This document shows, one piece after another, positions 40,022 to 50,148 of a stretch of 64,000 nt of DNA. Origin of the DNA: Paracoccus rhizosphaerae. GTDB taxonomy: Bacteria > Pseudomonadota > Alphaproteobacteria > Rhodobacterales > Rhodobacteraceae. A program made the position numbers and the translations under genes. The stretch spans positions 1-64,000 of the forward strand of contig NZ_JAOTBE010000005.1 in the NCBI RefSeq assembly GCF_026162645.1, written 5' to 3'. The notes beneath the pieces are model-generated. The model made no database searches, had not been told where the DNA came from, and saw only the letters and a list, made by a program, of their open reading frames with translations. Numbering within the stretch: position 1 is the stretch's first letter; each line of letters opens with the position of its first letter.

Positions 40022-43000
40022 TCACTCGGCTGGCTGCGCCTCGGGGCGGGGCTGCCGGCGCAGGTTCTCGATCAGGACATAGATCACCGGCGTCAGGAAC
40101 AGCGTCAGCACGAAGGCCAGTGACAGACCGCCCACGATCACCGCGCCGATTGCCCGGCGGCTTTCGGCCCCCGCCCCCGTCGCCGTGGCCAGCGGCACCG
40201 CCCCCAGGACCGTCGCGATCGTGGTCATCATTACCGGCCGCAGCCGCGTCACCGCCCCTTCCCGCGCCGCCGACACCAGATCGCGCCCCTCGTCGCGCAG
40301 CTGGTTGGCGAACTCGACGATCAGGATGCCGTTCTTGGCCATGATTCCGATCAGCAGGATCATTCCGACCTGCGAGAAGATGTTGACCGATGCGCCGGTG
40401 AACATCAGCGTCGCCACCGCCCCCGAAAGGCCAAGCGGCACCGTCAACATGATCGTCATGGGCGTGCGAAAGCTTTCGAACTGCGCGGCCAGGACCAGGA
40501 AGACGATGGCCAGCGCCATGACGAAGACGGTCGCGACACCGCCCTGGTTCTCCTGAAAATCCTCGGCCTGGCCCCGCCATGCCAGTAGCGCGCCTGCGGG
40601 AAGGTCGGCGGCGGCGGATTCCACCACGGCCATGGCGCGGGCGAGGTCGGTGCCCTCCACCAGGTCGGCCTCGGTCTCGACCGAGATCAGGCGGTCATAG
40701 CGGTCGATTTCCGGAACCGTGGCGCCGGTGGCGATGTCGGCAAAGGCCGACAGCGGGATCAGGTCGCCGCGCTGGTTGCGGATCATCACCGACAGCATGT
40801 CCTGCACGCTGTCGCGATCCTCTGGCAGCGCCTGCAGGATCACCGGATACTGCCGCCCGTCATCGGCATATTCACCGACCGTGCGCGACGCGAACAGCAC
40901 CTGCAGCGTCTGCGCCACCGTTTCGCTGTCCAGCCCCAGGTCCTGCGCCCGCGTCCGGTCGATGGAGAGCGACGCGCCGGGCTGGTTGGCGGCATAGTCG
41001 ACCTCGACCCCCGCCAGCCCCGGGGCGCCCTGCAGTTCCGCCGCCAGATCATTCGCCCAGGTCGCCGCGCGCGCCAGATCCGGCCCGCCGATCATCCAGC
41101 GGATGCTGCCGCTGCCGCTGCCGATCCCCAGCCCGCCAGAGGGCTGCAGCCAAGACGAAACCTCGGTCAGCGCCGAGATCTGCGGCCGCAGTTCCGAAAT
41201 GACCTCGTCCACGGTGACCTCTCGCTGTTCCCAAGGCACCAGGTTCACGAAGACCCAGGCGCGCCGGGGCTCACCCCAGATGCCAACGACGGTAGTCAGG
41301 TTCTCGACGACGCCCTGCTCGCGCAGCGGCGCGATGATCGCCTCGACCTTGCGGGCGGCGGCGTCGGTATAGGCCAGGTTCGACCCCTGCGGCGCCGTCA
41401 GCATGATGCGGAAGGCGCCGCGGTCCTCGTCCGGGGTCAGCTGGCGGGGCAGCGCCTGATAGACTGACACCGAGGCCGCGACCAGGAACGCCGTTCCCGC
41501 CAGAATCGCCACCGGCCGCGCGATCAGACGGGCCAGGACGGCATCATAGCCGCGTTCCAACCAGCCGATGGCGCGGTTGACGCTGCGGGTCAGCCAGTTC
41601 GGCCTGTCCTCTCGCGGCATCACGCGGGCGGCCAGCACCGGCGACAGCGTCAACGCGACGAAGCCGGACACCGCCACGGCAATTGCCATGACGATGCCAA
41701 ATTCCGCGAACAGCTGCCCCAGTTCGCCCTCCATGAAGCTGACCGGCAGGAAGACCGAGATCAGGACGGCGGTCGTCGCGATCACGGCGAAGCTGACCTG
41801 CCCCGCACCACGGCGCGCGGCCTCAGCGCGGCTGGCGCCCATGGCGCGGTGTCGCTGGATGTTCTCAAGCACCACAATGGCGTCGTCCACGACCAGGCCG
41901 ATGGCCAGGATCAGCGCGAAGAGCGTCAGGATGTTGATCGAGAACCCCAAGGCCAGCATCCCCAGCCCCGCCCCCAGGGCCGAGATGGGGATCGTCACCA
42001 CCGGCACCAGCGACAGCCGCATCGAGCCAAGGAACAGGAAGATCACCGCCGTCACCAGCGCCACCGCCTCGGCAAAGACCTTCAGGACCTGCGCCAGAGA
42101 GCTTTCGATGAACACCGCCTCGTCCGAGGTCACGCGCAGCGACATCCCCTCCGGCAGGGTCGGGCGGATGCGCTCGATCTCGGCCCGGATGGCGTTCGAG
42201 ATGGCAACCGTGTTCGACTGCGCTTGCGGCAGAACGCCCATGCCAAGCGCCACCACGCCGTTCGAGCGGAACAGCGTCTCGGTCTCTTCGGCGCCCTGTT
42301 CGATCCGGGCGATGTCGCCAAGGCGCAGGGGCCGCGTACCGTCGTCGCGCAGGACCACCTGGCGGAAGGCATCGGCCGAGGCGAAGCGCGTTTCGGCCAG
42401 CACCTGAAGCTGCCTCGCATCGGTCTCGATCTCGCCCGCCGGCAGCTCGACGTTGTTCGCCTGCAGCGCGGTGATGACGTCGCCGGTGGTCAGGCCGTAT
42501 CCGGCCATCCGCGACTGGTCCAGCCAGATGCGCATCGACGGCGCGCGTTCGCCATAGATCGAAGTGTTGGCCACGTCCGGCAGCCGCGCCAGACGGTCGA
42601 TGATGAAGCGGTCGGCATAGTCGGAGAGCTGCAGCGGCGACATCGACGGGCTGGACAGCGACAGCCGCATGACCGGATCGCCCTCGTCGTCGTTCTTCTC
42701 CACCCGCGGCGTGCCCGCCCCTTCCGGCAGGTCGTTCAGCACCCGGTCCACGGCCGCGCGAACGTCGTTGGCGGCGCTGTCGATGTCGCGCGATGGATCG
42801 AAGGTCAGGACGCTGCGCATGCCGCCCCGGTCCGAATTCGTGCGCATGGCCGTCACACCGCTGACGCCCGCCAGCGCGCCTTCGATGACCGTGGCCAGCT
42901 GGTTGTCGACAACCTCAGGACTGGCGCCGGTGTAATCGACACGGACGCTGACTTCGGCGACGTCGACCTGCGGCAATTCCCTGACCGGCAGCCGCGTCAT

Positions 43001-43084
43001 CGCGACGGCGCCGATCAGCACGATCAGCAGGTTCATCACGGTCGCCAGCACAGGGCGGCGCAGGGCGAGGTCAGGCAGGCTCAT
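40022..43084 (-). CDS. RND-family efflux pump, inner-membrane permease
   Basis: 1020 residues, full-length AcrB/MexB-like transporter with 12 membrane segments and two large periplasmic loops. Proton relay: the Asp pair in LILAIGLVVDDAIVVLENI (TM4), and the matching late segments (QVGMILLIGIMAKNGILIVEFANQL). It exports drugs or lipophilic compounds using the proton gradient. ATG overlaps the adaptor stop by 4 bases. No outer-membrane channel gene is nearby, so a shared TolC-type protein is needed. Confidence 0.94.
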   Translation of the reverse strand: MSLPDLALRRPVLATVMNLLIVLIGAVAMTRLPVRELPQVDVAEVSVRVDYTGASPEVVDNQLATVIEGALAGVSGVTAMRTNSDRGGMRSVLTFDPSRDIDSAANDVRAAVDRVLNDLPEGAGTPRVEKNDDEGDPVMRLSLSSPSMSPLQLSDYADRFIIDRLARLPDVANTSIYGERAPSMRIWLDQSRMAGYGLTTGDVITALQANNVELPAGEIETDARQLQVLAETRFASADAFRQVVLRDDGTRPLRLGDIARIEQGAEETETLFRSNGVVALGMGVLPQAQSNTVAISNAIRAEIERIRPTLPEGMSLRVTSDEAVFIESSLAQVLKVFAEAVALVTAVIFLFLGSMRLSLVPVVTIPISALGAGLGMLALGFSINILTLFALILAIGLVVDDAIVVLENIQRHRAMGASRAEAARRGAGQVSFAVIATTAVLISVFLPVSFMEGELGQLFAEFGIVMAIAVAVSGFVALTLSPVLAARVMPREDRPNWLTRSVNRAIGWLERGYDAVLARLIARPVAILAGTAFLVAASVSVYQALPRQLTPDEDRGAFRIMLTAPQGSNLAYTDAAARKVEAIIAPLREQGVVENLTTVVGIWGEPRRAWVFVNLVPWEQREVTVDEVISELRPQISALTEVSSWLQPSGGLGIGSGSGSIRWMIGGPDLARAATWANDLAAELQGAPGLAGVEVDYAANQPGASLSIDRTRAQDLGLDSETVAQTLQVLFASRTVGEYADDGRQYPVILQALPEDRDSVQDMLSVMIRNQRGDLIPLSAFADIATGATVPEIDRYDRLISVETEADLVEGTDLARAMAVVESAAADLPAGALLAWRGQAEDFQENQGGVATVFVMALAIVFLVLAAQFESFRTPMTIMLTVPLGLSGAVATLMFTGASVNIFSQVGMILLIGIMAKNGILIVEFANQLRDEGRDLVSAAREGAVTRLRPVMMTTIATVLGAVPLATATGAGAESRRAIGAVIVGGLSLAFVLTLFLTPVIYVLIENLRRQPRPEAQPAE

Positions 43085-44172
43085 CCCCCGGCCTCGGCGC
43101 TGGCCGACTGCGTCCGCGGCGTGGCGCTGATGGCGGTGCCGGGGCTGACGCGGTGCAGGTTCGATACGATGATCGGCGTGCCGGCGCCCAAGCCTGCCAG
43201 AACCTCGACGAGGCCGTCGATCTGCTGGCCGACCTCGATCTCGGCGTGCTGTGCCTTCCCGTCGAGCGCGATCAGGACAAGGTGGCGGTCGCCGTCCACG
43301 GTCAGCGCGGTTTCAGGGACCGCCGGCGCCTGGCGTTCGTCCAGCACCAGTTCGGCCTGCAGGAACATGCCGCCCGTCAGCGCGCGGTCGGCGTTGTCCA
43401 TCTGGGCGCGCAGCGCGATGGAGCGGGTGGCCGGATCGACCCGCGTGTCGATCCGCGCGATCTGGGCGGGAAAGACGCGGCCTGGCCATGCGGCCGAGCG
43501 CAGCTGCACCGCCTGCCCCACGGCCAGCCGCGGCAGAAGCGTCTCCGACACGGCGAAATCGACTTCGATCGCCGAGAGGTCGTCCAGCGTCGTGATCGGC
43601 GTCGCGCTGTCCAGAAGCTGCCCCTCGACCAGGTCGGTCAGGCCGGTCACGCCGTCGAAGGGCGCCGTCACGCGCCGATCCTCCAGCGCCAGCTGGGCGC
43701 GGTCGCGTTCGGCCTCAGCCCGCAGCAGCGCCGCCCGCGCGGTCTGGAACGCCGCATCCGAGGCGCTGCCGCTGCGGTTCAACTGCTCTTGCCGGGCGAA
43801 GGCGGCCTGGGTTTCGGCCAGCGTCGCCTCGGCTGCCATCAGGTCGGCCTGTTCCGCCCGGTCGTCCAGCGCCAGAAGCAGGTCGCCCTGCGCGACCTCG
43901 GCGCCGGGGGTAAAGGCGATGCGCATGATGCGACCGCTGGCCTCGGCCGTGACCTCGACCGCGCGACGGGCGCGGGCGGTGCCGACGGCGCGGACGCTGT
44001 CGGTGAAGCGGGCGGTCATGACCGGCACGGTCTCCACCGGCACGGCCTCTGGTACGGCCCGCGCCTGAACCTGCGGGTCGGGCGCCGCCAGAAGCCGGTC
44101 CGACAGGTGCAGCCCGGCAGCCGCCGCCCCCGCGACAACCACCGTGCCGATTATCGCCCTGAGGATCCGCAT
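43081..44172 (-). CDS. RND efflux periplasmic adaptor (membrane fusion protein)
   Basis: 363 residues from ATG 44172 (MRILRAIIGTVVVAGAAAAG), preceded by AAAGG. An N-terminal signal/anchor is followed by a lipoyl-like half (AEASGRIMRIAFTPGAEVAQGDLLLAL), a coiled-coil hairpin (~90-160, EQADLMAAEATLAETQAAFA), the second lipoyl half (VTAPFDGVTGLTDLVEGQLL) and a beta-barrel. Joins the pump to an outer-membrane channel. First gene of the pair; no regulator adjacent, divergent from the IMPase-like gene. Confidence 0.93.
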   Translation of the reverse strand: MRILRAIIGTVVVAGAAAAGLHLSDRLLAAPDPQVQARAVPEAVPVETVPVMTARFTDSVRAVGTARARRAVEVTAEASGRIMRIAFTPGAEVAQGDLLLALDDRAEQADLMAAEATLAETQAAFARQEQLNRSGSASDAAFQTARAALLRAEAERDRAQLALEDRRVTAPFDGVTGLTDLVEGQLLDSATPITTLDDLSAIEVDFAVSETLLPRLAVGQAVQLRSAAWPGRVFPAQIARIDTRVDPATRSIALRAQMDNADRALTGGMFLQAELVLDERQAPAVPETALTVDGDRHLVLIALDGKAQHAEIEVGQQIDGLVEVLAGLGAGTPIIVSNLHRVSPGTAISATPRTQSASAEAGG

Positions 44173-44318
44173 CGTCAGCCTTTCATTCGCGCGCAGCGGC
44201 AGAGTGCCCCATCCGGTCCCCGCCGCAAACCAAATCATGTGTGATCTTCCGGGGCGGCGTTGACAGCCGCTGCCCCGGCGGGCATCCGCAGGGCAACCGA
44301 GACAGAAGGGCCTACGCC

Positions 44319-45101
44319 ATGAGCACCATCGACGACCTGACGCTGGCCTGCAACGCAGCCCGGGCCGCCGGTGCCTTCCTCCGCGACCAATGGGCCGCGC
44401 GGGATCAACTGACGATCACCGCGAAGGGGGCCGGCGACTATGTGTCGCAGGCCGATCACGGGGCCGAGTCGCTGCTGCGGCGCCACCTTCTGGATGCCCA
44501 CCCCGGCGACGGCTGGCTGGGCGAAGAGACCGGGGACCTGCCCGGCCGCCGCCGCTGGATCGTCGATCCGCTGGACGGCACGACGAACTTCCTGCGCGGG
44601 ATCGCCCACTGGGCCGTGTCGGTCGCTTTGGAAGAGGATGGCCGGCTGGTGCTGGGCGTCGTTCACGACCCTCTGAAGGACGAGACCTTCAGCGCCCGCA
44701 TCGGCGACGGGCTGCGGCTGAACGACGCGGCCCTGACGCCCGCCGCGCCGCCGGGTTTCGATGCGGCCCTGTTCGGCACGGGACTGCCGTTCGGCGACAT
44801 GCCGGCAATTCCCGACCATGCCGCCGACCTGATCCGCGTGCTGCCGCATTCGGCGGGGGTGCGGCGGATGGGGGCGGCCTCGCTGGATCTGGCTTATGTC
44901 GCGGCGGGACGGCTGGACGGATTCTGGGAACGCCGCCTGCGCCCCTGGGACATCGCCGCGGGACTGGTGCTGCTGCGCGAGGCCGGCTGCCGCGTCGAGG
45001 GTTGGAGCCCCGAAGACCGCCCCGAGGACAGCGGCAACGTGATCGCCGCCCCTGCGGCGATCTTTGATCGCTTCGCCGCCACCATCCGCCAGCCCGCCTA
45101 G
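44319..45101 (+). CDS. Inositol monophosphatase family protein
   Basis: 260 residues from ATG 44319 (AGAAGGG upstream). Full Mg-dependent phosphatase motif set: GEETGDLPG, IVDPLDGTTNFLRGIAHWAVSVAL and RPWDIAAGLVLLREAG. DGTTNF and WDIAAG point to a SuhB/inositol-1-phosphatase type, in contrast to the HisN type at 24066. Works in the cytoplasm; SuhB relatives also influence rRNA antitermination. Convergent with and overlapping the FkbM methyltransferase by 4 bases. Confidence 0.9.
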   Translation: MSTIDDLTLACNAARAAGAFLRDQWAARDQLTITAKGAGDYVSQADHGAESLLRRHLLDAHPGDGWLGEETGDLPGRRRWIVDPLDGTTNFLRGIAHWAVSVALEEDGRLVLGVVHDPLKDETFSARIGDGLRLNDAALTPAAPPGFDAALFGTGLPFGDMPAIPDHAADLIRVLPHSAGVRRMGAASLDLAYVAAGRLDGFWERRLRPWDIAAGLVLLREAGCRVEGWSPEDRPEDSGNVIAAPAAIFDRFAATIRQPA

Positions 45102-45829
45102 ACCGCCCGCGCATAAAGGTCGCCGGACCGCCCATCGCGCGGCAGGCCGCGCAGCCAGGACCGCGCCGCGTCCGCATCGCGCCAGTCCGGCCACAGGAAG
45201 CGGGCATCTTCTCCGGCCACGGGGTTGAAGCAGTAGTTACCCAGTTCTTCCAGCCGGTCAATGACCGCCAAGGTCCGGTCGGGCAGGCCCGGCAGGTATT
45301 CCACCGACACCAGCGGCAGGGGCTGGCTCAGCCCGGCCAGGACGTCCAGCTCAAACCCCTCGACGTCGATCTTGACCAGATCGGGCATCCCGTGATCGGC
45401 GATCAGGCGGTCCAGCGTCGTGACCTGCACCTGCTGGCGGCGGTCCCACCGCACATGGCCGAAACCCGGTGCCTCGGCCGCATCGGCCGCGAAGCTCGCG
45501 CTGAGCGAGGACACCGTCGGGTGCAGCGACGAGACCGACATCTGCGCCATCGTCTCGGTCGGGCCGACGGCCTTGCGGACCAGGACGATGTCGCTCGGCA
45601 GGCTGCGCTGCAGGAAGCTTACGAAGGGTTCCTGCGGTTCGCAGGCGACGACGCGGGCGCCTGCACGACGCATCGCCCGCGCACGGCTGCCGACATGGGC
45701 GCCGATGTCGAAGGCCAGCTGCCCCGGCGACAAAAGGTCCCTATAGAAGCGTACCAGCTGTCGCTGCCGCACGGGATTGTAGTAGATCGCAAGCGAACGG
45801 ATCAATCCAATCCAGGTGCGCAGCTGCAT
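45098..45829 (-). CDS. FkbM-family SAM-dependent methyltransferase
   Basis: 243 residues from ATG 45829 (GGGGGAT upstream). SAM-binding motif LAFDIGAHVGSRARAMRRAGARVVACEP, then the FkbM signature LVKIDVEGFELDVLAGL. Such enzymes methylate sugars, polyketides or polysaccharide ends. Nothing nearby identifies the substrate; the GDP-mannose gene at 16012 is far away. A TTG 12 bases further upstream is an alternative start. Confidence 0.88.
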   Translation of the reverse strand: MQLRTWIGLIRSLAIYYNPVRQRQLVRFYRDLLSPGQLAFDIGAHVGSRARAMRRAGARVVACEPQEPFVSFLQRSLPSDIVLVRKAVGPTETMAQMSVSSLHPTVSSLSASFAADAAEAPGFGHVRWDRRQQVQVTTLDRLIADHGMPDLVKIDVEGFELDVLAGLSQPLPLVSVEYLPGLPDRTLAVIDRLEELGNYCFNPVAGEDARFLWPDWRDADAARSWLRGLPRDGRSGDLYARAV

Positions 45830-46030
45830 CGTATCCCCCAATGAAAGCCTCAGCCTAGGGCGGTGCGCCGGGCGCGTCCAGAAAGTGCGCTGCCGCCCTG
45901 GATGTTCCCTGAAATCGCCGGTCCTGCCCGCGACATTCCGCCACGCAGTGAAACCAGCTCCGGAACCTCTACGTGTATCAGGCTGTTAGATTGAAACATC
46001 TTCTTGTTCCCAAGGGCTGAAGGTCGATCC
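45830..46030. promoter_or_regulatory. Divergent region before the pterin/flavin-type operon
   Basis: 201 bases. It has a hairpin AGGGCGG / CCGCCCT around 45856-45899. The conserved core of an FMN riboswitch was looked for before the ribA-like gene and is not present, which argues that this operon is not part of the normal riboflavin control. Confidence 0.4.
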
Positions 46031-47155
46031 ATGCGCGTCTCTCCTCTGCTTCCCGGTGCCGCCACGCCTGTCGATCCCTTCGCCCCGGGACATGCCGAAC
46101 GCGTCGCGCGCATGGTGGCCGACCTGCGCCTGGGCCTGCCGGTCGCGCTGCTGAGCACGTCCGAAGCCGCGCTGGTCCTGCCGGTCGAGACCCTGTCTGC
46201 CGAAAGGTTCGCGGCCATTGATGCGCCGCATCAACTGGTCGTCACCTCACGGCGGGCCGAGGCGCTGCGGCATCGCCCACATGAAGGCGAGGTTGCCCTT
46301 CTGCCCGTCCCTGCAGATGCGCGGCTGGACTGGGTACGGTCGCTTGCCGACCCGTCGCGTCGGATGCCTGCCTCTGACGCGGTGCCGCAGGCGCCGCAGC
46401 AGCAGCCGACCGCCCTGCACCGCGCCGCCATCCGTCTGGTCAAGGCGGCCGAGCTTCTGCCCGCCGCGCTGGTGGTTACCGGTCCCGATGTCATGCAGAC
46501 CGCGATGCGCAACGGATTGGGCATCCTCGGCGCGGACGAGGTGCTGGCGCAACTGCTGGCGCCGCGCGATCCGCGTCCGGTCTCGGATGCGCGGGTGCCG
46601 ATGCTGGCGGCGCGCAACGGGCGCCTGCATGTCTTTCGTGCCAGCGACGGCGGTGCCGAGCATTACGCGGTTGAAGTCGGTCAGCCGGATCGGTCGAAGC
46701 CGGTCCTTGTGCGCCTTCATTCGGCCTGCTTCACCGGCGATGTGCTTGGCAGCCTGAAATGCGACTGCGGCTCGCAGCTCCGCGCCGCGCTGGCGGCGAT
46801 GGAGGCCGAGGGGTCCGGCGTGCTTCTCTATCTCAACCAGGAGGGACGCGGCATCGGGCTGGCCAACAAGATGCGTGCCTATGCGCTGCAGGACCAGGGC
46901 CTGGATACGGTCGAGGCGAATCACCGCCTAGGGTTCGAGGATGACGAGCGCGACTTCCGAACCGGCGCGGCGCTCTTGCGCCAGATGGGGATCGGACGTG
47001 TGCGGTTGATGACGAACAACCCTGCAAAGATCGCGCGGCTGGACGGCGAAGGCATCCAGGTGGTCGAACGCGTGGCCCTGCAGGTCGGTCGCGGTCCCGA
47101 CAACACCAGCTATCTTGACACCAAGGCACGCAAGTCCGGGCACCTGCTGGCATGA
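46031..47155 (+). CDS. ribA: GTP cyclohydrolase II-like protein
   Basis: 374 residues from ATG 46031. C-terminal half (~180-374) is a GTP cyclohydrolase II: zinc cysteines in SACFTGDVLGSLKCDCGSQL (C~233, 244, 246), catalytic NQEGRGIGLANKMRAYALQ, and NNPAKIARLDGEGI. It opens GTP, giving a pyrimidine or, in variants, formyl-pyrimidine product. The N-terminal ~175 residues are not a working RibB: the acidic DDEDRENEGD-type loop is missing; a VALLSTSEAALVLPVETL region may be its remnant. First gene of a five-gene operon; its stop overlaps the next start by 4 bases. Confidence 0.88.
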   Translation: MRVSPLLPGAATPVDPFAPGHAERVARMVADLRLGLPVALLSTSEAALVLPVETLSAERFAAIDAPHQLVVTSRRAEALRHRPHEGEVALLPVPADARLDWVRSLADPSRRMPASDAVPQAPQQQPTALHRAAIRLVKAAELLPAALVVTGPDVMQTAMRNGLGILGADEVLAQLLAPRDPRPVSDARVPMLAARNGRLHVFRASDGGAEHYAVEVGQPDRSKPVLVRLHSACFTGDVLGSLKCDCGSQLRAALAAMEAEGSGVLLYLNQEGRGIGLANKMRAYALQDQGLDTVEANHRLGFEDDERDFRTGAALLRQMGIGRVRLMTNNPAKIARLDGEGIQVVERVALQVGRGPDNTSYLDTKARKSGHLLA

Positions 47156-48096
47156 CCGCCCAGGCGCTATGGTGCGTGGGCGAAGGTCGGGCCGAGATCC
47201 GCGACGGTGCGTTAGGTCAGGGTGTTCTTGTCCAGACAATGTTCACGGGCATCAGCCGCGGCACGGAACGGCTGGTCCTGTCCGGCGGCGTCCCTCCGTC
47301 CGAGCAGGACCGCATGCGCGCGCCCTTTCAGGAGGGGGATTTTCCCTTTCCGGTCAAATACGGCTATGCCGCCGTCGGCCGCGCGGCCGAGGGGGATATG
47401 GCCGGACGCACCGTCTTCGCCCTCTTTCCCCACCAGTCGCAGTTCCGTCTGCCGTCAGATGCGCTGATCCCGGTGCCGGACGCGGTGCCGCCGGAACGTA
47501 CGGTCCTGGCCGCCAACATGGAAACCGCGCTGAACATCCTGTGGGACAGTCAGGCAGGTGCCGGCGACCGGGTCGCGGTGGTGGGCGGCGGGTTGGTCGG
47601 GCTGCTTGTGGCGTCACTCGCCGCGCGCCTGCCGGGGGCCGAGGTCACGGTCATCGACCCGCTGGCCGCCCGCGAACCGCTGGCCCGTGGGCTTGGCTGC
47701 GACTTCGCGGCGTCAGGCGGCGGCCTGCCGGACCAGGACGTGGTGATCCACGCCAGCGCCACCCAGGCCGGGCTGGTGGCGGCGCTGGATCTGGCTGGAC
47801 CCCAAGGCACCGTGGTCGAGGCCAGTTGGCATGGTCAGTCGCAAGTCGCACTGCCGCTTGGCGGCGCGTTCCACAGCCGCCGCCTGCGGATCGTCAGCTC
47901 TCAGGTCGGGGCCATCCCGCCCGACCGCGCGCCGCGCTGGACCTATCGCCGACGCCTGACCAAGGCGCTGGCGCTGCTGGCAGACGCTCGGTTGGACGCG
48001 CTGATCTCTGGTCAGACAGACTTCGCTGACCTGCCCGCCGCCTATCCGGGGATCCTGTCAGACCCCGGCACGTTATGTCATCGCGTCAAATTCTGA
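47152..48096 (+). CDS. Zinc-free MDR-type dehydrogenase (BchC-like)
   Basis: 314 residues. The N-terminal part FTGISRGTERLVLSGGVPPS replaces the usual zinc Cys of alcohol dehydrogenases with Ser, as in BchC-type enzymes; VKYGYAAVGRAAEGDMAGRT and HQSQFRLPSDALIPVPDAVP follow. The Rossmann domain carries VAVVGGGLVGLLVASLAARLPG. Likely an NAD(P)-dependent oxidoreductase acting on an alcohol or ketone made by the neighbouring enzymes. It overlaps ribA by 4 bases and lies 18 bases before the PTPS-like gene. No bacteriochlorophyll genes are in the window. Confidence 0.82.
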   Translation: MTAQALWCVGEGRAEIRDGALGQGVLVQTMFTGISRGTERLVLSGGVPPSEQDRMRAPFQEGDFPFPVKYGYAAVGRAAEGDMAGRTVFALFPHQSQFRLPSDALIPVPDAVPPERTVLAANMETALNILWDSQAGAGDRVAVVGGGLVGLLVASLAARLPGAEVTVIDPLAAREPLARGLGCDFAASGGGLPDQDVVIHASATQAGLVAALDLAGPQGTVVEASWHGQSQVALPLGGAFHSRRLRIVSSQVGAIPPDRAPRWTYRRRLTKALALLADARLDALISGQTDFADLPAAYPGILSDPGTLCHRVKF

Positions 48097-48114
48097 CCAC
48101 TTGCAGGAGCGCAA

Positions 48115-48510
48115 ATGTTCGCAGTCGAAGTCCGGGACCATATCATGATCGCCCATTCCCTGCCGTCGCCCACCTTCGGGCCCGCACAGGGGATGCACGG
48201 CGCGACCTTCACCGTCGACGCCGCCTTCTTCGCCGAGGAGATGGATGACGAAAGCCTGGTTGTCGACATGGGCCTGGCAACCGAGGCGCTGTCGGATGCC
48301 CTTGCGCCGCTGCGCTACAAGAACCTGGACGAGATCGAGGCCTTCGGCGGCAAGTTCACCACGACCGAGTTCCTCTGCAAGCACATCTTCGACCAGTTGG
48401 CCGACAAGGCGCGGACGGGCGATCTGGGCGATCCGGCGCGGCTGAAGCGGCTGCGCGTGACGCTGCAGGAAAGCCACATGGCGCGCGCCTGGTTCGAGGG
48501 GGATCTCTGA
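48115..48510 (+). CDS. Divergent 6-pyruvoyltetrahydropterin synthase/QueD-like protein
   Basis: 131 residues, T-fold family. Usual PTPS/QueD proteins bind zinc through one His plus the two of HGH. Here H14 (MIAHSL) and H28 remain, but the pair reads HGA (H28-G29-A30), and the catalytic Cys of QueD is missing. NLDEIEAFGGKFTTTEFLCKHIFD and the C-terminal ESHMARAWFEG (E119) keep the fold. H9 or H121 might supply a third ligand. So it probably works on a pterin-like compound but not as a standard QueD. Third gene of the operon; AGGAG precedes the ATG. Confidence 0.8.
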   Translation: MFAVEVRDHIMIAHSLPSPTFGPAQGMHGATFTVDAAFFAEEMDDESLVVDMGLATEALSDALAPLRYKNLDEIEAFGGKFTTTEFLCKHIFDQLADKARTGDLGDPARLKRLRVTLQESHMARAWFEGDL

Positions 48511-48512
48511 TC

Positions 48513-49286
48513 ATGGGGTTCTCGGCACAGTGGCTGGCGCTGCGCGAACCCGCCGACCAAAAGGCGCGGGACCCGGCCCTGCTGACCCGTGCCGTCGCGG
48601 CCGCAGGACCAGCACCGGTGATCCTGGACTTGGGCTGCGGCACGGGATCGACCGTCCGGGCCCTGGCGCCGCACCTGCCCGAGACCGCCCGCTGGCATCT
48701 GGTCGACAACGATCCGCTGCTGCTGGACCAGGCCAGCGCCGAGGCCCCCGGTCGCGTGCAGGTGCATGAACTGGATTTGGCGCAACTGGACGCCCTGCCG
48801 CTGGAGGGGGTGACGCTGGTCACCGCCTCGGCCCTCCTGGACCTGATGCCGGCCGCCTGGATCGAGGATCTGGCCGCCATACTGGCGGCGGCGGGGCTGC
48901 CCTTCTATGCCGCACTGTCCTATGATGGCATCATGTCGTGGGAGCCAGCCCTGCCCAAGGACCACGACGTGACCCGCGCCTTCAACGACCACCAGCGCAG
49001 CGACAAGGGCTTGGGGCCGGCCCTGGGACCCGATGCTGGAACCGTGGCCGCGACCATCTTCCGCGCCGCGGGATTCAACGTGCAGCAGGCGATCAGCCCG
49101 TGGCGGATCGCGGCAGAGGCCGTACCCCTGCACCGGGCGCTGGTGGAGGGAATTGCGGACGCGGCCGGCCAGGCGGGCCAGCCGATGGCCGCCGAATGGG
49201 GCCGGGCCCGCGCCGGAATGGCCTCTGAGAGTCGCTGCCTGATCGGTCATCTGGACCTTCTGGCGCTGCCGCCCCGCACTGCCTGA
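48513..49286 (+). CDS. Class I SAM-dependent methyltransferase
   Basis: 257 residues. SAM-binding motif ILDLGCGTGSTVRALAPHLP and acidic DNDPLLLDQA, then motif VTASALLDLMPAAW. The substrate half is unlike common metabolic methyltransferases. Starts 3 bases after the PTPS-like stop, so it is tightly coupled. In context it may methylate the pterin- or flavin-like product; this is inference only. Confidence 0.8.
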   Translation: MGFSAQWLALREPADQKARDPALLTRAVAAAGPAPVILDLGCGTGSTVRALAPHLPETARWHLVDNDPLLLDQASAEAPGRVQVHELDLAQLDALPLEGVTLVTASALLDLMPAAWIEDLAAILAAAGLPFYAALSYDGIMSWEPALPKDHDVTRAFNDHQRSDKGLGPALGPDAGTVAATIFRAAGFNVQQAISPWRIAAEAVPLHRALVEGIADAAGQAGQPMAAEWGRARAGMASESRCLIGHLDLLALPPRTA

Positions 49287-49311
49287 CCCTTATCCGAAGG
49301 AGACGAACACC

Positions 49312-50148
49312 ATGCAGGCCGTCGACGTCACCCCCCGGGTCTGGGACCGCATCCTGGCGGTGCGCAGCGGCCAGGCATGTGCCTGCTGCGGCCGTTTTTC
49401 CGCCGGAGAACGGGCGGCGCTGGACCTTTACGGCCCCGTGGCGCGACGCGACCTGGGGCCGGTCACGGTGGCGCAGATCGGACAGTCGCTGGACGGGCGC
49501 ATCGCCACGATGTCTGGCGACGCGCGCGACGTCTCTGGACCCGACGGGCTGGCGCATCTTCACCGCCTGCGGGCGCTGGTCGACGGTGTGGTGATCGGGG
49601 TGGGAACCGCGCTGCACGACCATCCGCGCCTGACGGTGCGGCTGTGCAGCGGCCACGACCCGGCCCGCATCGTCATTGACCCGCGCGGGCGCCTGCCCGA
49701 TGATGCACCGATGCTGGCCGCGACCGGTGCGCGGCGCATCGTCGTGCAGGGCGTCGACCGCCCCCGCCCCCGCGGAGTCGAGATCCTGCGCCTGCCCCTG
49801 CATGACAGGCAGCTGGACCCGTCGCAGATCCTGGACGGGCTGCGAACGGTGGGTCTTGGCTCGCTGCTGATCGAGGGCGGCGGGACGACCATCACCGGGT
49901 TCCTCGAAGCCGGGCTGCTGGACCGTCTGCAGGTCTCAATCGCGCCCCTGATCATCGGCGCCGGCCCGCAGGGCCTGACCAGCCGGACGCCAGTCGATCG
50001 GCTGAAGGACGCGCTGCGCCCCGACACGCGCGTTTTCGGCTTGGGCAGCGACATCGTCTTCGACTGCGGGCTGGGCGATCTGGCCGCCAGATGCATGCTG
50101 CCGGTCCACTCGAAGCACCCACTGAGGCAAGTCCCGGCGGCGGGCTAG
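49312..50148 (+). CDS. RibD C-terminal-domain reductase without deaminase domain
   Basis: 278 residues. The main part (~50-250) is a RibD/DHFR-like reductase: VTVAQIGQSLDGRIATMSGDA, VDGVVIGVGTALHDHPRLTVR, and LLIEGGGTTITGFLEAGLLD. The usual N-terminal zinc deaminase of RibD is absent; instead there are ~45 residues with a cysteine cluster (C23-A-C25-C26). It should reduce a ribosyl- or sugar-amine intermediate with NADPH. Last gene of the operon; overlaps the convergent CoA-transferase end by 4 bases. The riboflavin pathway proper must be elsewhere. Confidence 0.85.
   Translation: MQAVDVTPRVWDRILAVRSGQACACCGRFSAGERAALDLYGPVARRDLGPVTVAQIGQSLDGRIATMSGDARDVSGPDGLAHLHRLRALVDGVVIGVGTALHDHPRLTVRLCSGHDPARIVIDPRGRLPDDAPMLAATGARRIVVQGVDRPRPRGVEILRLPLHDRQLDPSQILDGLRTVGLGSLLIEGGGTTITGFLEAGLLDRLQVSIAPLIIGAGPQGLTSRTPVDRLKDALRPDTRVFGLGSDIVFDCGLGDLAARCMLPVHSKHPLRQVPAAG

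Follow-up and report, generated by a model that had tools for sequence, protein, structure and literature searches.

The stretch of DNA analysed here (the window) comprises 64,000 nucleotides of Paracoccus rhizosphaerae and carries, at positions 46031-50148, a five-gene operon around a protein of PTPS-IV, a named subfamily without a published product. The conserved unit to which this operon belongs is made of six genes, the sixth one encoding a GT4 glycosyltransferase that is not part of the operon in the window. In this genome, the window operon is one of two loci that jointly encode the six-gene pathway. With some reserve, we favour the view that the five genes and GT4 would convert GTP, via a diaminopyrimidine, into a reduced, methylated and glycosylated product of pterin type, distinct from riboflavin, queuosine and biopterin. 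The near-constant GT4 and RibD_C partners give a defined six-gene target for finding the PTPS-IV compound.

The six-gene definition is based on the neighbourhoods of PTPS-IV in 108 loci (L024-L103, the window, L134-L143 and L152-L168, with at least one duplicate pair, L157 and L095), examined with hidden Markov models built from the loci, which separate the orthologs from the background. The 80 named loci among them are the top 80 out of at least 581 relatives, which biases the locus counts. An MDR-superfamily dehydrogenase is present in 103 of the 108 loci, a methyltransferase in 101, GT4 in 95, a RibD_C reductase in 75 and the GTP cyclohydrolase II RibA in 38. The MDR gene lies on the same strand and at most 200 bases from PTPS-IV in 96 loci, and GT4 does so in 77. 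When only the 59 loci in which PTPS-IV has 8 kb or more of sequence on each side are considered (out of 81, the window included), MDR is found in all 59, the methyltransferase in 57, GT4 in 51, RibD_C in 40 and RibA in 25. All six genes occur together in 31 of the 108 loci and the five of the window in 34; among the 81 loci, 27 contain all five genes of the window set. A preliminary description of this DNA, made from its letters, had named a genome survey as a possible refutation of the operon as a set, and in this survey the five genes do co-occur. The neighbourhood search that it proposed for the PTPS-like protein recovered MDR, methyltransferase, RibD_C and RibA as recurrent partners, and added GT4. 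The five-gene set proved incomplete: because the conserved six-gene set includes a glycosyltransferase, the product is probably glycosylated. In three of the 108 loci (L153, L155 and L156, from genomes outside the class), GT4 and the methyltransferase form a single open reading frame (ORF), a gene fusion that links the two steps.

The association also holds at the level of genomes. PTPS-IV is present in 19 of 248 genomes of the family of the window (21 matches, including two weak ones of HGH type), in 45 of 385 genomes of a class sample and in 19 of 299 genomes of a phylum sample, six of these 19 being outside the class. In the class sample, cluster-type GT4 is found in 44 of the 45 PTPS-IV carriers and in one of 340 non-carriers (Fisher 1e-55), and cluster-type RibD_C, set apart from full-length RibD by scores of at least 240 bits against at most 155, in 39 of the 45 carriers and one of the 340 non-carriers (Fisher 7e-46), both values being uncorrected for relatedness. 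The sole carrier without GT4 is G299, whose PTPS-IV lies at base 156 of a contig. The two exceptions among the non-carriers are G316, with GT4, and G373 (74% complete), with RibD_C. For 36 family genomes, all first-look candidates were scored, the non-carriers being hand-picked and non-random; here, GT4 was present in 18 of 19 carriers and in one of 17 non-carriers.

The set spans from streamlined genomes of 1.4-1.6 Mb to Streptomyces. The 80 named loci include Rhodobacteraceae, Rhizobiales, a Xanthomonas and Pseudohaliea, and the plasmid records with a PTPS-IV match (n=20) include six from Streptomyces and others from Arthrobacter, Microbacterium and Thiodictyon. The core order MDR-PTPS-IV-GT4-methyltransferase is found as well in Streptomyces fungicidicus, Microbacterium, Thiodictyon and Methylosinus plasmids. 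In the small genomes G504 and G581 (1.4 Mb) and G406 (1.6 Mb), which are 94-96% complete, the six genes form one contiguous block, where a creatininase adjoins MDR; no further gene of the recurrent set was seen in these 20-kb stretches.

In P. rhizosphaerae itself, the GT4 ortholog is encoded on another contig (C66:18878-19903, 423 bits), in an operon whose genes follow each other head to tail, with overlapping ends, on one strand: a CDP-alcohol phosphotransferase, a sulfatase-fold membrane protein, a flippase-like LPG_synthase_TM protein and GT4 (stretch L181). A cytochrome b561 gene lies beside this operon and is divergent from it.

The five ORFs of the window operon are all on the + strand, with gaps of -4, 18, 2 and 25 bases, which bears out the tight arrangement (overlaps or gaps of at most 26 bases) noticed at first. 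The matches to Pfam and NCBIfam are strong for the GTP cyclohydrolase II (GCH II), the PTPS family, the class I methyltransferase and RibD_C, and weak for MDR.

The protein around which the set is defined (48115..48510, +) is a T-fold protein with a Pfam PTPS match of 71.9 bits. By its sequence, it is assigned to PTPS-IV, a known, functionally unassigned subfamily of COG0720: a profile of 19 orthologs matches PDB entry 3d7j, the Streptomyces protein SCO6650, at 2.3e-52, whereas the top PTPS and QueD structures reach only 2.4e-5 and 1.6e-3, respectively; SCO6650 is its ortholog. F21, G22, P23, A24, Q25, H28, G29 and A30 are invariant in the 19 aligned orthologs, whose mean column identity is 73%, and the HGA read earlier in place of HGH is therefore a constant feature. 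Aligned to 1b66, the positions of the catalytic Cys, Asp and His are occupied by A, by R (consensus N) and by Y, and the last His of HGH by Ala, so that, given the roles of these residues in the PTPS catalytic site, the catalytic triad and one zinc ligand are replaced. SCO6650 reportedly lacks zinc and PTPS activity, yet is said to retain a pterin-like pocket. The label QueD-like given to this protein was accordingly overstated, and automatic labels such as 6-carboxytetrahydropterin synthase are wrong for the subfamily. The three described subfamilies were rejected as candidates: as QueD (PTPS-I), its PAQGMHGAT has HGA and no Cys and TIGR03367 gives 31.3 bits against a cut-off of 89.25; as PTPS-II (biopterin), the CxxxxxHGH motif and the Cys-Asp-His triad are not present; and as PTPS-III (folate), it reads AQGMHGA in place of ExxHGH. 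The passages that describe the motifs give CxxxHGH for QueD (PMC5041015) and FGPAQ, a motif tied to PTPS-IV in two papers, as the signature of this subfamily (PMC5445326). Two Streptomyces plasmids, L173 and L174, carry PTPS-IV-like genes among cupin, MEKHLA and MBL-fold proteins, perhaps with a second function; these paralogs were left out of the locus counts.

RibA (46031..47155, +) is derived from a RibBA protein. Its GCH II character had been recognised from the start, and is consistent with the Pfam GTP_cyclohydro2 match (PF00925, 205.8 bits, 4e-61), the GCH II profile TIGR00505 (224.4 bits, above the cut-off of 205.85) and the three zinc Cys and the RAY Tyr, which are conserved without exception in the 17 orthologs, by which the protein is a predicted GTP cyclohydrolase II with its key residues kept. 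In a structural model, residues 179-352 superpose on the E. coli GCH II 2bz0_B (Z 25.0, rmsd 1.4, 51% identity). It is not a bare GCH II, however, as residues 20-178 have a RibB-type fold (3lrj_B: Z 15.0, 144 aligned, rmsd 2.9). RibB carries an acidic motif, and the corresponding stretch of RibA reads VALLSTSEAALVLPVETL, with no acidic run, which led us to reject a bifunctional RibBA. The statement that the operon has no RibB is thus right for the activity, whereas the GCH II does carry, as a fusion, a degenerate domain with the RibB fold. In the Sulfitobacter locus L049, the key residues of the RibA copy align badly, perhaps because of decay or misassembly.

The MDR protein (47152..48096, +) shows a distant likeness to BchC, and calling it BchC-like went too far: TIGR01202 gives 41.7 bits against a cut-off of 291.25, and BchC was rejected. 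Its ADH_zinc_N match (25.1 bits, 1.8e-5) is under the cut-off of 31.8, and no Cys was found among the columns conserved in at least 93% of the 103 loci. The best PDB matches of MDR and of GT4 are unspecific. The class I S-adenosylmethionine-dependent methyltransferase (48513..49286, +) matches Methyltransf_25 (PF13649, 40.8 bits, 3.8e-10); its AlphaFold model (pLDDT 96.8; best PDB fold match 3mgg_B, Z 19.6) gave generic class I matches only in the fold search, which therefore indicate no substrate.

The last gene (49312..50148, +) encodes a RibD_C reductase of 278 amino acids with around 50 extra N-terminal residues (PF01872, 122.7 bits, 2.3e-35). As had been stated, RibD_C is the only domain that Pfam finds in it, with no deaminase, and a bifunctional RibD, which would have the deaminase at its N-terminus, was rejected. 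Its best PDB matches are 2azn (97.8 bits) and 6p8c (91.9), the next one having 66.2; 6p8c is named 2,5-diamino-6-ribosylamino-pyrimidinone 5'-phosphate reductase. In sequence terms, the protein is closest to the archaeal-type reductases that act before deamination, on the non-deaminated substrate. Even though these nearest solved structures are of the ArfC type, it was not accepted as an archaeal-type DARPP reductase (ArfC), with a TIGR01508 score of 101.7 against a cut-off of 186.45.

The genes and their fold families, the co-occurrence of the six and the two-locus split were all observed; from them we infer the reactions, their order and the product. GCH II would open GTP to 2,5-diamino-6-ribosylamino-pyrimidinone phosphate. 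Where it halts at the formylated form, as reportedly does the Streptomyces GCH II paralog SCO6655, a creatininase-family protein encoded next to it would take off the formyl group. RibD_C would then reduce the sugar part. Since the GCH II residues are intact and the RibD_C protein has no deaminase, with pre-deamination reductases as its nearest relatives, the first steps are likely to yield a reduced 2,5-diamino-pyrimidinone. The 2-amino-4-oxo ring would be retained, leading to a pterin-type product. PTPS-IV, which has lost the triad and kept some binding-pocket residues of the fold, may act on or hold a pterin-like intermediate, and MDR may oxidise or reduce the side chain, so that both would shape the pterin-type core or its side chain. 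Finally, the methyltransferase would methylate the pterin-type intermediate and GT4 would add a sugar. The compound had been proposed to be of pterin or flavin type; the pterin type is favoured and the flavin type less likely, because there is no deaminase and, as we infer, the set contains no enzyme that would take off the 2-amino group.

Several points weigh against this pathway. RibA lies within the stretch in only 38 of the 108 loci, six of the 45 carriers (one of them 68% complete) have no cluster-type RibD_C at the threshold, and the class-wide searches scored only part of the first-look candidates (5 for GT4, 6 for RibD_C and, in large genomes, 11 for PTPS-IV). The S. fungicidicus cluster gave no RibD_C match in its stretch. 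PTPS-IV, as judged from the alignment, is without the classical catalytic residues. Moreover, if a RibD_C-type reduction made a ribityl chain, the rearrangement leading to dihydroneopterin could no longer take place; the known rearrangement cannot turn a ribityl product into neopterin, which leaves the route to a second ring unexplained. Neither a consumer enzyme nor a product was found for the pathway.

In a rival explanation, which we regard as unlikely, although worth keeping in mind, the six-gene core would make an open-ring, methylated and glycosylated ribityl-aminopyrimidine; PTPS-IV would serve for binding or as a scaffold, and a pterin would not arise at all. In its favour, a RibD_C-type reduction suits an open pyrimidine, and the alignment shows the triad and a zinc ligand replaced in PTPS-IV. 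Against it, PTPS-IV is strongly conserved, as its column identity indicates, and SCO6650 is said to keep pterin-binding residues.

The favoured pterin-type pathway has partial counterparts in known systems. The glycosylated pterins of cyanobacteria and Chlorobium, such as cyanopterin and limipterin, likewise combine a pterin with a glycosyltransferase and sometimes methylation, but their routes begin with GCH I and tetrahydrobiopterin. Among the PDB matches of GT4, a UDP-glucose:tetrahydrobiopterin glucosyltransferase is a weak one (2.5e-4), other GT4 enzymes matching far better (2.4e-19). The S. fungicidicus locus comprises MDR, PTPS-IV, GT4, methyltransferase, CDP-alcohol phosphotransferase, a flippase-like protein, creatininase and RibA. 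Its RibA (L169:16479-17138) reads RAM, with the creatininase beside it, whereas the RibA of the window and of the alphaproteobacterial clusters reads RAY and the window operon has no creatininase; the RAM and adjacent creatininase fit the formylated-product variant reported for Streptomyces. The window also differs from this S. fungicidicus locus in having a RibD_C gene. The archaeal-type front end of riboflavin and F420 synthesis, together with the BrbF formamidase, shares with the proposed pathway the opening of GTP, an optional, separate deformylation by a creatininase-family protein and a reduction before deamination (PMC9478397). Unlike it, the window pathway continues with PTPS-IV, MDR, methyltransferase and GT4, and creatininase is found in eight of the 108 loci.

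Another rival explanation, which we consider very unlikely, takes the operon as a spare riboflavin module, with RibA and RibD_C feeding flavin synthesis and the other genes being incidental. The intact GCH II residues of RibA would allow it, and an alternative riboflavin entry with a creatininase-family formamidase has been described for Alphaproteobacteria in that same source (PMC9478397). The remainder of the G504, G581 and G406 genomes was searched for PTPS-IV, GT4, RibD_C and PF00925 (and, in G406 and G504, for PF00351). In G406, 96% complete, the sole RibD_C match is the cluster copy, and riboflavin synthesis may therefore be missing there, fall into a gap or make use of the cluster enzyme as well. 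However, G504 and G581 hold other RibD_C and GCH II proteins, and so does P. rhizosphaerae, with another RibD_C protein (contig C136, an open frame of 388 amino acids), two further GCH II domains (C136 and C88) and another, higher-scoring PTPS (C114), in agreement with the initial claim that the set is separate from the riboflavin pathway. RibD_C also goes with PTPS-IV and GT4 rather than being general to genomes, and has no deaminase.

An F420-like or deazaflavin product is slightly more improbable still. An unpublished remark on PTPS-IV, as relayed in a passage of PMC5041015, suggests an F420-like compound, and the steps of GCH, formamidase and RibD_C type are similar to the archaeal riboflavin/F420 front end; however, no CofG/CofH or other F420-specific gene was found among the recurrent neighbours, the genomes as a whole not having been searched for them. 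The least probable proposal, a biopterin-like cofactor for aromatic amino acid hydroxylases, draws on the joint presence of a PTPS fold and a dehydrogenase in one operon and of a PF00351 protein in this genome (C158), and is disfavoured by the replaced triad and by the occurrence of PF00351 in 13 of 37 carriers versus 10 of 36 non-carriers (hand-picked genomes; p 0.62). The operon was rejected as plain riboflavin, queuosine or biopterin synthesis.

Part of this neighbourhood has been seen before. A 2017 survey (AGeNNT, cluster-node 62) observed PF00925 and PF01872 near PTPS-IV (PMC5445326), and shares with the window both the FGPAQ signature and these two neighbours; it calls PF00925 GTP cyclohydrolase I, although this family is GTP cyclohydrolase II. 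The node 62 passages name only these two families, and mention no product, GT4, methyltransferase, MDR or envelope genes. At first, no described product was known for the combination, and none was found for a PTPS-IV pathway in the one open-access library searched; the neighbourhood, however, is not new. What the present analysis adds is the definition by six genes, the split over two loci, the versions in small genomes and the envelope partners.

The envelope link is suggestive and weaker than the six-gene core. Among the 108 loci, PTPS-IV has as neighbours a CDP-alcohol phosphotransferase (44 loci), an FkbM-family methyltransferase (43, always on the opposite strand), an MdoH-type glucosyltransferase (42), cytochrome b561 (37), the sulfatase-fold protein (35), the flippase-like protein (34) and an inositol-phosphatase-like protein (19). 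The MdoH-type and sulfatase-fold proteins are near-exclusive, with both in four loci, the former alone in 38 and the latter alone in 31. The Asp/Gly motif of the CDP-alcohol phosphotransferase family is kept in 19 of 19 sequences. The CDP-alcohol phosphotransferase and the sulfatase-fold protein are both found in nine of 19 carriers and one of 17 hand-picked non-carriers (p 0.008). Two genomes without PTPS-IV speak against the link: G018 has, in one stretch (L185), matches to the CDP-alcohol phosphotransferase, the sulfatase-fold protein, the flippase-like protein, an MdoH-like protein (462.5 bits) and cytochrome b561, and G011 has matches to GT4, MdoH-like, FkbM and cytochrome b561 (L182).

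An envelope-anchored product is possible, and the envelope, if the link holds, would be an unexpected location for a pterin. Its most specific form, an envelope-anchored pterin redox carrier serving as a pterin cofactor for the outer face of the inner membrane, is doubtful, and we know of no carrier of this kind. The six enzymes would build a methylated glycosyl-pterin in the cytoplasm, the CDP-alcohol phosphotransferase would tie it to a phospholipid, the flippase-like protein would move the lipid-linked pterin across, and the sulfatase-fold membrane transferase would hand it to a periplasmic acceptor. In other lineages, the MdoH-type glucosyltransferase would replace the sulfatase-fold module, and cytochrome b561 would give the electrons.

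Upstream of the operon, the window carries the divergent FkbM-family methyltransferase (45098..45841, -; PF05050, 5e-16), a frequent neighbour, and an inositol-monophosphatase-family protein (44241..45101, +, start position provisional) that is accessory in Rhodobacteraceae loci and whose NCBIfam PRK10757 score, 176.4 bits, is under the cut-off of 332. A minus-strand ORF at 44235-45194 overlaps the phosphatase gene on the opposite strand, has no Pfam match and was taken as a shadow ORF. Directly upstream, an RND efflux permease and a periplasmic adaptor are encoded at 40022-44238 (-). In a few Rhodobacteraceae, a YceI-domain protein (L024:6316-7008) and an Exo_endo_phos protein (L060:6743-7603) recur near PTPS-IV, in four and three of the 81 loci, respectively.

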